Of a stretch of DNA of 64,000 nucleotides, positions 43,342 through 50,847 are shown piece by piece. The position numbers were made by a program, and so were the translations under genes. This DNA is from Roseovarius spongiae. Lineage in GTDB: Bacteria; Pseudomonadota; Alphaproteobacteria; Rhodobacterales; Rhodobacteraceae. The stretch covers positions 434,001 through 498,000 of the forward strand of contig NZ_RAPE01000002.1 in the NCBI RefSeq assembly GCF_003651245.1, written 5' to 3'. Numbering within the stretch: the stretch's first letter is position 1; the number at the start of each line of letters is the position of its first letter. The notes beneath the pieces are model-generated. The model did no database searches. It saw nothing but the letters and a program-made list of their open reading frames with translations, and was not told the origin of the DNA.

Positions 43342-43779
43342 ATGGCCGAGGGCGATACCCTGCGCGGCTCCTGCCTCTGCGGCGCCTGCGGCTTTAGCGC
43401 CCAGCCCCTCAACCGCGAGGCCGGAGTGTGCCATTGCGGCATGTGCCGCAAATGGTCGGGCGGGATGTTCTTCGTCGCGGAATGCGGCTCCTCGGTGGTC
43501 TTCGACGAGAGCGCGCCGGTCAAGCGCTACGTCTCGAGCGACTGGGGCGAACGGCTGTTCTGCGGCGTCTGCGGCTCCACCCTGGTGTGGCAGATGCGCG
43601 ACGGCGGGATGCAGATGGTTTCGACCCAGACGTTCGACGACCCGGACCAGTTCACCCTCACGACCGAGGTGTTCTACGACGAGAAGCCCGCGGGTTATGC
43701 GCTGGCCAACGAGACGAAGAAGATAACCGGGGCCGAACTCATGGCGATGTTCGCCCCGCCGCCGGGTGCGGGGGAATGA
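43342..43779 (+). CDS. GFA family (glutathione-dependent formaldehyde-activating type) zinc protein
   Basis: This 145-aa protein has the GFA/CENP-V zinc-binding fold. Paired Cys motifs lie in LRGSCLCGACGFS, VCHCGMCRKWSGGMF and RLFCGVCGSTLVW, which bind two zinc ions. The family was first described for S-hydroxymethylglutathione formation, but most bacterial members are uncharacterised. The gene starts directly after nuoC, so it is translated as part of the nuo operon. Whether it serves complex I is unknown. A nine-codon frame overlapping its stop links it to the next small ORF. Confidence 0.9.
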   Translation: MAEGDTLRGSCLCGACGFSAQPLNREAGVCHCGMCRKWSGGMFFVAECGSSVVFDESAPVKRYVSSDWGERLFCGVCGSTLVWQMRDGGMQMVSTQTFDDPDQFTLTTEVFYDEKPAGYALANETKKITGAELMAMFAPPPGAGE

Positions 43780-46092: not shown

Positions 46093-47271
46093 ATGCTACG
46101 CCGTCTCTATCCCGATCAACCTGCCAGCTTCGCCTTCACGCCCGAGAACCAGGCCTGGGCCGAGGCGCAGATCACCAAGTTTCCCGAGGGCCGCCAGGCA
46201 TCGGCGGTCATCCCGATCCTGTGGCGCGCGCACGAACAGGAGGGCTGGCTGACCCGCCCGGCGATCGAATACGTTGCCGACATGCTGGGCATGGCCCGTA
46301 TCCGCGCGCTCGAGGTGGCGTCGTTCTACTTCATGTTCCAGCTTCAGCCGGTCGGCTCGGTCGCGCATATCCAGATTTGCGGCACGACGTCCTGCATGAT
46401 CTGCGGCGCCGAGGATCTCATGGCCGTCTGCCAGGAAAAGATCGCGGTGAAACCGCATGAGCTGTCAAAGGACGGCAAGTTCAGCTGGGAAGAGGTCGAG
46501 TGCGTCGGCGCCTGCGCCAACGCGCCGGTGGTCCAGATCGGCAAGGACTACTACGAGGACCTGACCGCCGAACGCCTGCGCGAGATCCTCGATGAGTTGG
46601 CGGCGGGCAAGGTTCCGCTGCCGGGGCCGCAGAACGGACGCTACGCCGCCGAGCCGCTGAGCGGTCTGACCACGCTCGAGTCCTTCGACGACAACCGCGC
46701 GGCGCATAACGCCAGCGTGCAGCGCGCCGCGGATCTCAACGACACGATCCGCCGCATCGACGGAAGCGAACAGCCGCTGACGCAGCCGTGGCACGACAAG
46801 GGCGCGCGCCACGACCCCGCCGAGTCCACCGTCAAGGTGAACGAAACCCCGGTGCCGATCCTCGGCAAGCCGTCCAAGGCCGCGGCCAAGCCGGACGACA
46901 AGCCGGAAGAGACCGCGTCCGCGGCCAGCCCCGCGCCGAAACCCGCGCCCGAGGCCAAATCCGACAGCGGTGCGGCGGATGCGGGCGCGAAGCCCGAAAC
47001 GCTCGACGCGCCACGCGGCGGGAAGGCGGATAACCTCAAGCTCATCAAGGGCGTGGGCCCCAAGCTCGAGGCGCTGCTGAACCGGCTCGGCTTTCACCAT
47101 TTCGACCAGATCGCCGCCTGGAGCGACGCCGAAGTGCGCTGGGTCGACCAGAACTTAGAGGGGTTCAAGGGCCGGGTGAGCCGCGACGAATGGGTCAAGC
47201 AGGCCAAGACGCTGGCGAAGGGCGGGGAGACTGAGTTCGCCTCGCGGGTGAAAAAGGGTGACGTTTACTAG
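46093..47271 (+). CDS. nuoE: NADH-quinone oxidoreductase subunit E with C-terminal HhH extension
   Basis: NuoE holds the [2Fe-2S] cluster N1a; the ligands are Cys96 and Cys101 ([12 protein letters not shown]) and Cys137 and Cys141 ([11 protein letters not shown]). The thioredoxin-like core ends near residue 170. The protein is 392 aa, more than twice the minimal length. After a linker rich in Ala/Pro/Lys/Glu (~240-300) it has a helix-hairpin-helix-like domain (300-385) beginning [18 protein letters not shown]. Long NuoE tails are known in Rhodobacter relatives. The same domain is repeated in the next gene, with high nucleotide identity. Confidence 0.95.
46990..47238 (+). repeat. Direct repeat copy 1 (3' end of nuoE)
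   Basis: This ~249-bp segment aligns without gaps to 47730-47978, offset exactly 740 bp. Long stretches are identical, including most of 47032-47125. It encodes the NuoE C-terminal domain from [12 protein letters not shown] to KGGETEF. Confidence 0.9.
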
Positions 47272-47318
47272 GGCTTCGGGCGGACGCAGCCCCGAGGACC
47301 AAAAGAGGAGCGACAACG

Positions 47319-48005
47319 ATGAGCGACCTTGCCGCAACGTGCAGGAAGACCTGCTGGGGCTTTGCCCTGGCGGTGGGAATCGCGTTCGCGGTCCTGCTGT
47401 TCTGGGCGGGCGGCTACGGGTGGTTCTCTTCGCTCCTGACCGGGATCATCGTCTGTTTCGTCTGCGGGTTCCTGTTCACCTATCTGTTCTGCTCCGGCCC
47501 TGGCGTGAGCGGCGCGGAGACAGCCGCCACCCCGGCGGCGCCGCGCATCGACGAGCCGGCGGCGACCCCGGCGGCCGAAAGCCCCGCCGCGGCTGCGCCG
47601 GGGCGCGTGCCGCCGGGCACGGTGACGCCGGCCAAGACGCCCGAACCGCCCAAGGAGGCAGTTCCGCAGGACGCGCCCGGCGCCGCGGCGGAAACCGCAT
47701 CCGACGTGGCGGAGACCGGGGCGCAGGACAAGCCGGAGACGCTCGAGGCGCCGCGCGACGGCAAGGGCGACAACCTCAAGCTCATCAAGGGCGTGGGGCC
47801 CAAGCTCGAGGCGCTGCTGAACCGGCTCGGCTTCTACCATTTCGACCAGATCGCCGCCTGGAGCGACCGGGAGGTCGCCTGGGTCGACGAGAACCTCGAG
47901 GGGTTCAGGGGCCGGGTGAGCCGCGACAACTGGGTCGCCCAGGCCAAGACCCTTGCGGATGGCGGCGAGACGGAATTCTCACGCCGCTCCAGGGGCGGAA
48001 AGTAA
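47319..48005 (+). CDS. Membrane-anchored protein sharing the NuoE C-terminal domain
   Basis: This 228-aa protein has a Cys-containing N-terminus with two hydrophobic helices (FALAVGIAFAVLLFWAGGY and LLTGIIVCFVCGFLFTYLF). An Ala/Pro/Glu-rich linker follows (~65-135), then an ~83-residue domain almost identical to the NuoE tail ([20 protein letters not shown], then the W-S-D-R-E-V pattern). It thus looks like the NuoE tail put on a membrane anchor. The gene is 47 bp after nuoE with GAGGAGCGACAACG before its ATG. The function is unknown; a role in complex I assembly, tethering or nucleic-acid contact is possible. Confidence 0.88.
   Translation: MSDLAATCRKTCWGFALAVGIAFAVLLFWAGGYGWFSSLLTGIIVCFVCGFLFTYLFCSGPGVSGAETAATPAAPRIDEPAATPAAESPAAAAPGRVPPGTVTPAKTPEPPKEAVPQDAPGAAAETASDVAETGAQDKPETLEAPRDGKGDNLKLIKGVGPKLEALLNRLGFYHFDQIAAWSDREVAWVDENLEGFRGRVSRDNWVAQAKTLADGGETEFSRRSRGGK
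47730..47978 (+). repeat. Direct repeat copy 2 (nuoE-tail paralogue)
   Basis: This is the second copy of the nuoE 3'-end repeat (first copy 46990-47238). The two are in the same frame and collinear. Recombination between them would delete 740 bp and fuse nuoE to the end of the second gene in frame, leaving a normal-looking nuoE. Confidence 0.9.
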
Positions 48006-48017
48006 GGAACGTGCGCA

Positions 48018-48242
48018 ATGCCCCAGGACAGCCGGGACAGCGAACACAGGCAGGGGCGGCGCGCCGCCCTGGTGATTGCCGGAACGGCGGTCTTCTGGGT
48101 GCTGGCCACGTTGATCGGAGGCGAGCTCGGGCTCGACAACCGGACGCTGGCGCTGTTCGACCTGATCGCGCTTGGCGGGTTCGTCTGGGCGCTGTGGATG
48201 ATTTACAATATCTGGCGCGCGCGCCAGGACAACAAGGGGTAG
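48018..48242 (+). CDS. DUF5337 small membrane protein
   Basis: This 74-aa protein has a charged N-terminus ([20 protein letters not shown]) and two predicted membrane helices ([18 protein letters not shown] and [20 protein letters not shown]). The pattern is that of DUF5337, a family I associate with nuo operons of Rhodobacterales. The gene lies 12 bp after the NuoE-tail paralogue and 7 bp before nuoF. The function is unknown; position suggests a complex I-related membrane role. Confidence 0.82.
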
Positions 48243-48249
48243 TAGCGGG

Positions 48250-49545
48250 ATGCTGAAAGACCAGGACCGTATCTTCACCAACCTTTACGGCATGCATGAC
48301 CGGACCCTGAAGGGGGCGCAGGCGCGCGGCCATTGGGACGGCACCGCGAAAATGCTGCAGAACGGGCGCGACTGGATCATCGATCAGATGAAGGCCAGCG
48401 GGCTGCGCGGACGCGGCGGCGCGGGGTTCCCGACCGGGCTCAAGTGGTCGTTCATGCCCAAGGAAAGCGACGGGCGGCCCGCCTATCTCGTGGTGAACGC
48501 GGACGAATCCGAACCCGGCACCTGCAAGGACCGCGAGATCATGCGCCACGATCCGCACACGCTGATCGAGGGCTGCCTGATCGCGAGCTACGCCATGCGG
48601 GCGCACGCCTGCTACATCTACATCCGCGGCGAATACGTGCGTGAACGCGAGGCGCTCCAGTTCGCCATCGACGAGGCCTACGACGCCGGGCTGATCGGCC
48701 GGAACGCCTGCGGGTCGGGGTACGATTTCGACGTCTACCTCAGCCACGGCGCGGGCGCCTATATCTGCGGCGAAGAGACCGCCCTGCTCGAGAGCCTCGA
48801 GGGCAAGAAGGGGATGCCGCGCATGAAGCCGCCCTTCCCGGCGGGCGCGGGGCTTTACGGGTGCCCGACGACGGTGAACAACGTCGAATCCATCGCAGTC
48901 GCGCCCACCATCCTGCGGCGCGGGCCGGACTGGTTCGCAAGCTTCGGGCGGCCCAACAACACGGGCACGAAGCTGTTCGCGATCTCGGGTCACGTCAACA
49001 ACCCCTGCGTCGTCGAAGAGGCGATGAGCATCGGTTTCGAGGAACTGATCGAGAAGCATTGCGGCGGCATCCGCGGCGGCTGGAAGAACCTCAAGGCGAT
49101 CGTGCCCGGCGGCTCTTCGGTGCCGCTGCTGCCCGGCTCCATCGCGCGCGAGGCGATCATGGATTTCGACTGGCTGCGCGACCAGAAATCGGGCCTCGGC
49201 ACGGCGGCGGTGATCGTGATGGACGAGTCCACCGACATCATCAAGGCGATCTGGCGCTTCGCGAAATTCTACAAGCACGAATCCTGCGGCCAGTGCACGC
49301 CCTGCCGCGAGGGGACGGGCTGGATGATGCGGGTCATGGAGCGGCTGGTGCGCGGCGACGCCGAGGTCGAGGAGATCGACATGCTGCTCAACGTCACCAA
49401 GCAGGTCGAGGGCCACACCATCTGCGCACTGGGCGACGCCGCCGCCTGGCCGATCCAAGGCCTTATCCGCCACTTCCGCGACGAGATCGAGGACCGCATC
49501 AAGCACAAGCGCACCGGCCGCGTCAGCGCCGTGGCGGCGGAGTAG
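48250..49545 (+). CDS. nuoF: NADH-quinone oxidoreductase subunit F
   Basis: NuoF binds NADH and FMN and carries a [4Fe-4S] cluster. The 431-aa protein has the NADH/FMN glycine loop [20 protein letters not shown] (about residue 54) and [16 protein letters not shown]. The cluster ligands are Cys346, 349 and 352 in [15 protein letters not shown] and Cys392 in HTICALGD. Length is normal. The ATG at 48250 follows a short GTAGTAGCGGG, 7 bp after the DUF5337 gene. Confidence 0.98.
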
Positions 49546-49549
49546 CGGC

Positions 49550-49966
49550 ATGGAGGCGTTCGCGGCATACGGTCATGCGATCGTGGCGATGGCGGGGCTG
49601 GCGTTCCTGACGCTGCTGCTCAGCCCGCTCACGGCGGTGAGGAAGACGGCCGCGGGCCTTGCGCCCGGGGCGCAGCCCGACGCCAGCTACGCTTCGCCCA
49701 TCTATCGATTGCACCGCGCCCACGGGAACCTGACCGAAGCGACGGGCAGTTTCGCGCTGGTCACCGTCGCCGCGATCCTTGCGGGGGCCAGCCCGCTCTG
49801 GGTGAACTGGCTGGCGTCGCTCTACCTCGTCAGCCGCGTGGTGCTGGCGGTCGTGCATGTCGCCGGTCTGGGCCGCCCCGACATGAGCCTGCGGTCTGTC
49901 GTTTACGTATTTGGCTGGGTGATCAGCATGGTATTGGCGGTCATGGCGATCGTCGCGGCGTTTTGA
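49550..49966 (+). CDS. MAPEG family membrane protein
   Basis: This 138-aa protein has four hydrophobic helices and the MAPEG pattern: a first helix with LAFLTLLLSPLTAVRKTAAG, then SPIYRLHRAHGNLTEATGSF (the Arg-x-x-x-Asn-glutathione-binding type motif, here RAHGN-x-x-E), then LVSRVVLAVVHVAGLG. MAPEG proteins are membrane glutathione transferases or isomerases; the bacterial role is mostly unknown. It starts 4 bp after nuoF, so it is part of the operon. Confidence 0.88.
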   Translation: MEAFAAYGHAIVAMAGLAFLTLLLSPLTAVRKTAAGLAPGAQPDASYASPIYRLHRAHGNLTEATGSFALVTVAAILAGASPLWVNWLASLYLVSRVVLAVVHVAGLGRPDMSLRSVVYVFGWVISMVLAVMAIVAAF

Positions 49967-50315: not shown

Positions 50316-50442
50316 GGATTCCGCAGATATCCGCCGACTCGAACCGCTGTTATTGCATAACGGGCGCATGCGCACCCATCTGCAGGATCGATGAAACCGC
50401 AGTTCCTGCGGGCATCGAGACATGCAAGACAGGAGTGACACC

Positions 50443-50847
50443 ATGCGCATGATGAAAACCGTCATCCTCGGGCTTACCCTCGCCGGCTTTGCCGCCGGCG
50501 GCGCGCAGGCCGGGCTGAAGGAGGAACGCGATATCACCGCCGGGCTTCTCGCCATCGCCGTCGCGGACAAGATCCGGCGCGAATGCGACGACATCTCCGG
50601 GCGGCTCTGGACCGCGCGTTCCTACCTGATGGGCCTGAAGAGGATCGCGCGCGACCGCGGCTACAGCGACGCCGAGATCGACGCCTTTGTCAACGACTCG
50701 GACAACAAGGCCGAGATGCGCGAGATGCGCAACGCCTATTACAAGTCCAAGGGCGCGAGCAACCTGGACCATGCGAGCCTGTGTGTGCTGGGCCGGGCGG
50801 AAATCGCCGCACACACGCGCGCCGGCTCATTCCTGAAAGCAAAGTGA
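50443..50847 (+). CDS. DUF5333 exported protein
   Basis: This 134-aa protein has a signal peptide (MMKTVILGLTLAGFAAGGAQ) and a helical body with two Cys (RRECDDIS and ASLCVLGR), matching the DUF5333 pattern found in nuo operons of this order. It is probably periplasmic. The ATG at 50443 follows AGGAGTGACACC; a 7-codon longer frame is possible but lacks a ribosome site. It is 6 bp before nuoG. The function is unknown. Confidence 0.82.
   Translation: MRMMKTVILGLTLAGFAAGGAQAGLKEERDITAGLLAIAVADKIRRECDDISGRLWTARSYLMGLKRIARDRGYSDAEIDAFVNDSDNKAEMREMRNAYYKSKGASNLDHASLCVLGRAEIAAHTRAGSFLKAK

Follow-up and report, generated by a model that had tools for sequence, protein, structure and literature searches.

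Why would a bacterium in which no reaction-centre genes were detected carry, within its respiratory nuo operon, a gene related to a subunit of the photosynthetic RC-LH1 complex? The question is raised by the window analysed here (a stretch of 64,000 nucleotides of Roseovarius spongiae DNA), which contains a Rhodobacteraceae nuo operon, and specifically by one gene, hereafter O, located between nuoE and nuoF.

Gene O and its relation to protein-O

The nuoE gene (46093..47271, + strand; PF01257, E = 3e-52) encodes a long-form protein of 392 amino acids with a [2Fe-2S] thioredoxin-like core, a linker, and an HhH-like tail domain (residues 300–383; 46990..47241, + strand); in the predicted model the core was poor (mean pLDDT 67) and the tail blocks presented pLDDT values of 91–98 (79 in the last block). 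NuoE passed the long-form model NF009040 (PRK12373) with 592.9 bits against a cut-off of 514, whereas O matched this model over its C-terminal part only, below the cut-off (146.1 bits), and is not a member. By contrast, Paracoccus NuoE as deposited in the PDB (8qby, 239 aa) has no such tail. Elsewhere in the host genome, a 603-aa open frame includes a second NuoE-like [2Fe-2S] domain (G000:C11:74203-74607; L002).

Gene O (47319..48005, + strand) encodes 228 amino acids and is separated from nuoE by 47 bp; the median distance from nuoE stop to O start was 35.5 bp in 52 of 77 named loci. Its product is predicted to consist of a two-helix membrane hairpin (residues 3–58; 47325..47492, + strand) with Cys8 and Cys58, a linker of 79 residues including 22 Ala and 15 Pro (47493..47729, + strand), and a tail domain (47730..47981, + strand). 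The model placed helices at residues 3–31 and 35–58 (pLDDT of 82–97 in ten-residue blocks) and gave high values for the tail (95–98; 78 in the last block) and values of 51–59 for the linker (69 at its end), which is predicted to be flexible from this and from its composition. These results bear out an earlier sequence-only reading of this DNA, which had described two membrane helices and a Pro/Ala linker on the neighbour of NuoE. O is followed by a gene for a small two-helix DUF5337 protein (48018..48242, + strand; PF17272, E = 3e-29) and by nuoF (48250..49545, + strand; 8qby_F, E = 3.4e-252); the operon also includes non-nuo genes, i.e., those encoding a GFA-family protein (43342-43779), a MAPEG protein (49550-49966), and a DUF5333 protein (50422-50847).

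Judged by its sequence, O is an orthologue of protein-O (phmmer to 8yy9_O, E = 1.2e-48; profile, E = 2.1e-79), a cryo-EM-defined subunit of the RC-LH1 complex of Dinoroseobacter shibae (PDB 8yy9), which was introduced as a novel photosynthetic subunit with its function and origin given as unknown (PMC12079452). The same study placed the protein-O gene of D. shibae between nuoE and nuoF, its hairpin between RC and LH1, and its disulfide at the cytoplasmic face (PMC12079452, section 2.3). Like window O, D. shibae protein-O is encoded between nuoE and nuoF and presents a two-helix hairpin with a Cys pair, a long flexible loop, and a NuoE-like C-terminal domain; Cys8 and Cys58 of window O align with Cys10 and Cys59 of protein-O and would be candidates for an equivalent disulfide. 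The two proteins differ in the hairpin loop, where window O has Ser and D. shibae has Gln. RC-LH1 entries containing the O family in the PDB include 8yy9 and 9lts from D. shibae and 9wqv from Rhodovulum sulfidophilum; chain a of the latter LH1-RC has the same architecture as O by sequence (E = 3.3e-35) and bears the name "NADH:ubiquinone oxidoreductase 41 kd complex I subunit". The possibility that 9wqv is a complex I entry was rejected; it is absent among the 32 sequences listed for NuoF and is listed for PufM. No paper on the R. sulfidophilum structure was found in the literature searched, and neither the NuoE extension nor the tail domain yielded a lead there. In that literature, which lies outside most subscription journals and all preprints, protein-O was covered by one primary paper (PMC12079452) and by a review (PMC12654162), and no report of protein-O without photosynthesis was found.

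Another two-helix hairpin reported between RC and LH1 is protein-U of Rhodobacter sphaeroides (also protein-Y or PufY). Protein-U has 53 amino acids and no tail, its sequence has been reported to be quite distinct from that of protein-O (PMC12079452), and its gene, unlike O, is reported to lie outside the nuo operon. Kinship of O with protein-U was rejected because a 66-aa hairpin that stands alone at the O site of one PufL/M-positive genome (G167, L055) gave a match to protein-O (E = 0.0017), with no protein-U chain listed up to E = 10, and because the protein-U gene is reported elsewhere.

A tail domain shared by NuoE and O

NuoE and O of the window both end in one domain of ~84 residues, with 215 of 252 bases and 72 of 84 residues identical; the copies start at 46990 and 47730, and the near-identity at a fixed 740-bp offset that had been noticed from the letters alone was thus confirmed. 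Differences at the first, second, and third codon positions numbered 9, 6, and 22 over 84 codons (NG86: dN 0.10, dS 0.42). When both peptides were held fixed and synonymous codons were sampled from local usage, 2000 re-draws gave a mean of 199 identical bases (sd 4.4) and a maximum of 214; none reached the observed value, which indicates a likeness beyond what codon usage explains. The longest identical run (35 bp) was attained in 0.9% of draws.

Among 110 genomes with both tails, mean tail identity was 0.642 between NuoE tails, 0.649 between O tails, 0.637 between NuoE and O tails across genomes, and 0.683 for NuoE and O of the same genome (0.85 in the window and 0.80 in the presumed D. shibae genome). 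The best match of the NuoE tail was the O of its own genome in 14 of the 110, where one was expected. Synonymous identity exceeded the codon-usage expectation at z > 3 in seven genomes and at z > 2 in 19 of the 110, as compared to 0.7% and 4.2%, respectively, of 550 between-genome controls; the window presented z = 3.43 and the median was only 0.47, so that homogenisation of the tails is episodic. On the tail tree, own NuoE/O pairs formed 10 of 68 cherries, including that of the window (SH-aLRT 91), and the NuoE/O label changed 51 times versus 75 in shuffles, so that some lineage signal is left in the tails. Two anciently separate paralogues, i.e., old domains that cluster separately, which would have counted against the sequence-only reading, were rejected: in 37 of the 110 genomes, holding the NuoE tails together as a clean clade cost 184 lnL units (AU p = 1.5e-17). 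Duplication within the operon followed by homogenisation, and with it the presence of one soluble and one membrane-bound copy of the same domain, both claimed in the sequence-only reading, are supported by these results. The simplest reading is episodic gene conversion between the NuoE and O tails, with repeated re-duplication as the alternative source of their likeness; domains 740 bp apart under repeated conversion would represent a natural case of concerted evolution within an operon.

O in genomes with and without photosynthesis genes

Unlike D. shibae, the host (genome 98.8% complete) presented no match to PufL/M (PF00124), LH1 alpha/beta (PF00556), or PuhA (PF03967), while all of these were present in the three PufL/M-positive members (G278, G316, and G035) of the eight-genome set searched for PF00556 and PF03967. 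O is therefore not an RC-LH1 subunit here and probably has another, non-photosynthetic job. Within the genus, O or its tail was matched in 59 of 60 genomes (52 of 52 good ones) and PufL/M in 30 of 60 (one a broken fragment), with matches covering the hairpin in both PufL/M-positive and PufL/M-negative genomes; within the family, O or its tail was matched in 271 and PufL/M in 121 of 295 genomes. Compared by eye, O proteins of same-genus genomes resemble those of named Roseovarius loci (L196 and L230, L206 and L222, L210 and L263), making Roseovarius the very likely genus. In the class, a match at E = 1e-10 was present in 25 of 289 genomes; two of the matches extended into the hairpin, both in Rhodobacteraceae, although a match that stops short of the hairpin does not mean that the hairpin is missing (one genome, G055, has O at L122, with matches beginning at residue 72 or later). 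The nuo operon of Rhodobacteraceae thus commonly includes O, even in genomes in which PufL/M was not detected, which argues for the recruitment of a respiratory-operon gene, makes the origin of protein-O testable, and suggests that complex I and RC-LH1 are linked genetically. The converse proposal, that O is purely an RC-LH1 subunit whose copies in non-phototrophs are leftovers of a recent loss of photosynthesis, draws on the genus counts for PufL/M and on the fact that the solved structures with the O family are RC-LH1.

Among 158 Rhodobacteraceae loci, O (called as any ORF other than NuoE that carries the tail and one or more hydrophobic segments) was found between nuoE and nuoF in 54 of 78 PufL/M-positive and 42 of 80 PufL/M-negative loci. 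For the first set, 80 of the 85 good PufL/M-positive genomes outside the best-match loci were taken; nuoE was matched in 79 of these, and omission of one on a broken contig gave the 78. The second was non-random, being chosen by handle order up to G168 with a few skipped, and some loci were cut by contig ends. The higher frequency of O with PufL/M (Fisher p = 0.035, unadjusted) is in line with the leftover proposal, whereas the retention of an open gene for hairpin plus tail in 42 PufL/M-negative loci is evidence against it; independent pairs on the NuoE+NuoF tree, a comparison with little power, showed no association. Inclusion of the 29 loci with best O matches (17 PufL/M-positive, 12 PufL/M-negative, all with O), which were kept outside the 158-locus counts, gave O in 71 of 95 and 54 of 92 loci, respectively. 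The form with hairpin and tail was missing from 38 of 80 PufL/M-negative loci; these absences represent an upper bound, as tail-less hairpin ORFs occur in several loci scored without O. Such ORFs were seen, for example, at the O site of L081, L120, L126, L133, L161, L163, L170, and L172, seven of these eight being PufL/M-negative; L092 and L167 contain short two-helix ORFs with His-rich ends (89 and 80 aa) that are, by eye, unlike O.

The hairpin alignment contained 124 two-segment rows (70 PufL/M-positive, 54 PufL/M-negative), 121 of them on the tree, and hairpin trees used 56 columns. Residues that separate the hairpins of the two lifestyles are a Gln in the loop (24 of 70 PufL/M-positive and 0 of 54 PufL/M-negative hairpins) and a juxtamembrane Leu (31 of 70 and 0 of 54). 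One or the other was present in 40 of 69 PufL/M-positive genomes and in 0 of 52 PufL/M-negative ones (121 genomes on the tree); 29 of the 69 had neither. Window O has Ser and Pro at these sites, and D. shibae has the Gln and not the Leu. The absence of this signature from the 52 suggests that PufL/M-negative hairpins are of their own type and not decaying copies, contrary to what leftovers would present. The signature was scattered on the species tree (31 changes versus 33 in shuffles), and among 10 independent pairs on average 4.0 agreed and 0.0 opposed, too few for significance. The Cys pair, found in 40 of 54 PufL/M-negative and 35 of 70 PufL/M-positive hairpins, is if anything commoner without PufL/M; it is thus not a mark of photosynthesis, and it also argues against leftovers.

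The PufL/M label changed 17 times on the hairpin tree, 28 times on the NuoE+NuoF tree, and 37 times on the O-tail tree, with ~39 changes in shuffles (n = 121); on the NuoE-tail tree (107 genomes) it changed 28 times versus 36 in shuffles. The 94 loci outside the best-match set gave 14, 22, and 28 changes for hairpin, NuoE+NuoF, and tail, respectively. With resampled columns and quick distance trees, means were 19.0 for the hairpin, 27.9 for the core, 31.6 for 56-column samples of the core, and 36.7 for the tail; after removal of eight of the columns that discriminate best, the hairpin gave 16. Prediction of PufL/M from three neighbours was correct in 81% of cases with the hairpin, 67% with NuoE+NuoF, and 60% with the tail (baseline 57%). 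Among these genomes, hairpin sequence is thereby shown to track photosynthesis better than the species tree does, and the two halves of O, hairpin and tail, evolve differently at the sequence level. Exceptions include eight PufL/M-positive hairpins of the PufL/M-negative type and 15 of 52 PufL/M-negative hairpins of the opposite type, the latter as expected of leftovers; hairpins of PufL/M-positive and PufL/M-negative members of one genus may nearly coincide (L206 and L199).

Selection on O without photosynthesis was assessed in PufL/M-negative pairs of the genus (12 of 20 loci parsed, with minus-strand loci not re-oriented). The tail presented dN/dS of 0.04–0.21 in five of six pairs (dS was saturated in the sixth). 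For the hairpin, the two closest pairs gave 0.16 and 0.41 and distant ones, which include all pairs with the window, gave 0.54, 0.77, and 0.92 (one pair was saturated); the high values in distant pairs would also fit leftovers. Against this, mean hairpin identity was 0.250 within PufL/M-negative and 0.265 within PufL/M-positive genomes (0.233 between them; 0.101 with shuffled composition), suggesting that PufL/M-negative hairpins are held about as well as the others, neither tightly.

Candidate roles of O

The sequence-only reading had suggested docking or assembly. The duplication and the pair of soluble and membrane-bound copies on which it was built are real, but the label of a mere docking subunit of complex I does not fit O, because it is an orthologue of an RC-LH1 protein; for non-photosynthetic hosts, docking or assembly at complex I may still reasonably be inferred. 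Our preferred reading, held tentatively and at somewhat less than an even chance, is that O is a complex I-linked membrane tether that is also used by the photosynthetic core where that exists, its partner being inferred. As an accessory protein encoded in the nuo operon and anchored in the membrane, O would have a hairpin with both ends in the cytoplasm, in line with the reported side of the disulfide, and, on a flexible tether, a domain kept close to the NuoE tail. In non-phototrophs, the hairpin may lie at or near the membrane arm of complex I, the tail may either share another partner with the NuoE tail or pair with it where the peripheral arm ends, and O may serve as a tether in assembly or organisation; in phototrophs, the hairpin would be adapted to fit between RC and LH1 while the tail retains its NuoE-like identity. 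Orthology with protein-O, the lack of detected RC-LH1 genes in the host, retention in PufL/M-negative genomes, homogenised tails, and a hairpin that tracks photosynthesis, all shown by sequence, are consistent with such a tether, as are the operon spacing, the constraint on the tail, and the similar hairpin identity within both groups of genomes. Loose coupling of tail and O, the 38 PufL/M-negative loci that lack the form with hairpin and tail, ambiguous selection on the hairpin, the higher frequency of O with PufL/M, and the tail-less Paracoccus NuoE count against it. Between O and complex I, a genomic link was found and no physical one.

A second reading, which we regard as possible but on the unlikely side, is that the tail is a general address tag with one common partner, perhaps a nucleic acid, that places complexes near ribosomes or the nucleoid (e.g., for co-translational membrane assembly). 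Such a tag would be carried by NuoE, O, and bL21, and the domain also occurs in NCBIfam models of S2 and the phasin PhaH. The only other clear copy of the tail found in the host genome is on an ORF that matches Ribosomal_L21p (PF00829, E = 2.9e-10; L295:864-1367, host contig C1), 55% identical to the NuoE tail over 68 residues and above the HHH_5 cut-off (28.8 versus 27 bits). A Pfam scan gave an HhH match for neither window protein (O itself had no Pfam hits), and the HHH_5 matches in 33 of 60 relatives of O were weak (E up to 0.1, best 6.3e-4); contact with nucleic acid would be possible for a fold of this putative kind.

The leftover proposal, weighed above, appears improbable to us. Equally doubtful is that the NuoE and O tails bind each other and that O thereby joins complex I and, where the host is a phototroph, RC-LH1: the two domains are nearly identical, sit on long tethers, and are encoded in adjacent genes, both are expected in the cytoplasm, and NuoE tail and O co-occur (84 of 158 loci; Fisher p = 0.002), but strict coupling was rejected by 41 loci with the NuoE tail and no O and 12 with the reverse. 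In 59% of these 41 loci, the distance to nuoF is <320 bp, as recombination between both tails would leave.

The tether reading also has a broader form, which we consider rather unlikely, in which a single tether from the operon serves both energy machines, gene conversion keeping its tail like that of NuoE and its hairpin being re-tuned upon gain or loss of photosynthesis. In phototrophs, O would then bring into RC-LH1 the domain that complex I has through NuoE and would physically couple, or competitively regulate, NADH dehydrogenase and the photosynthetic core; in non-phototrophs it would organise complex I alone.

More than one tail-bearing ORF besides NuoE was seen in 17 of 187 loci (L010, L025, L030, L046, L051, L052, L053, L065, L068, L069, L076, L091, L094, L144, L146, L171, and L178); the extra ORF mostly has no hydrophobic segment, and L091 contains two copies of the membrane hairpin.
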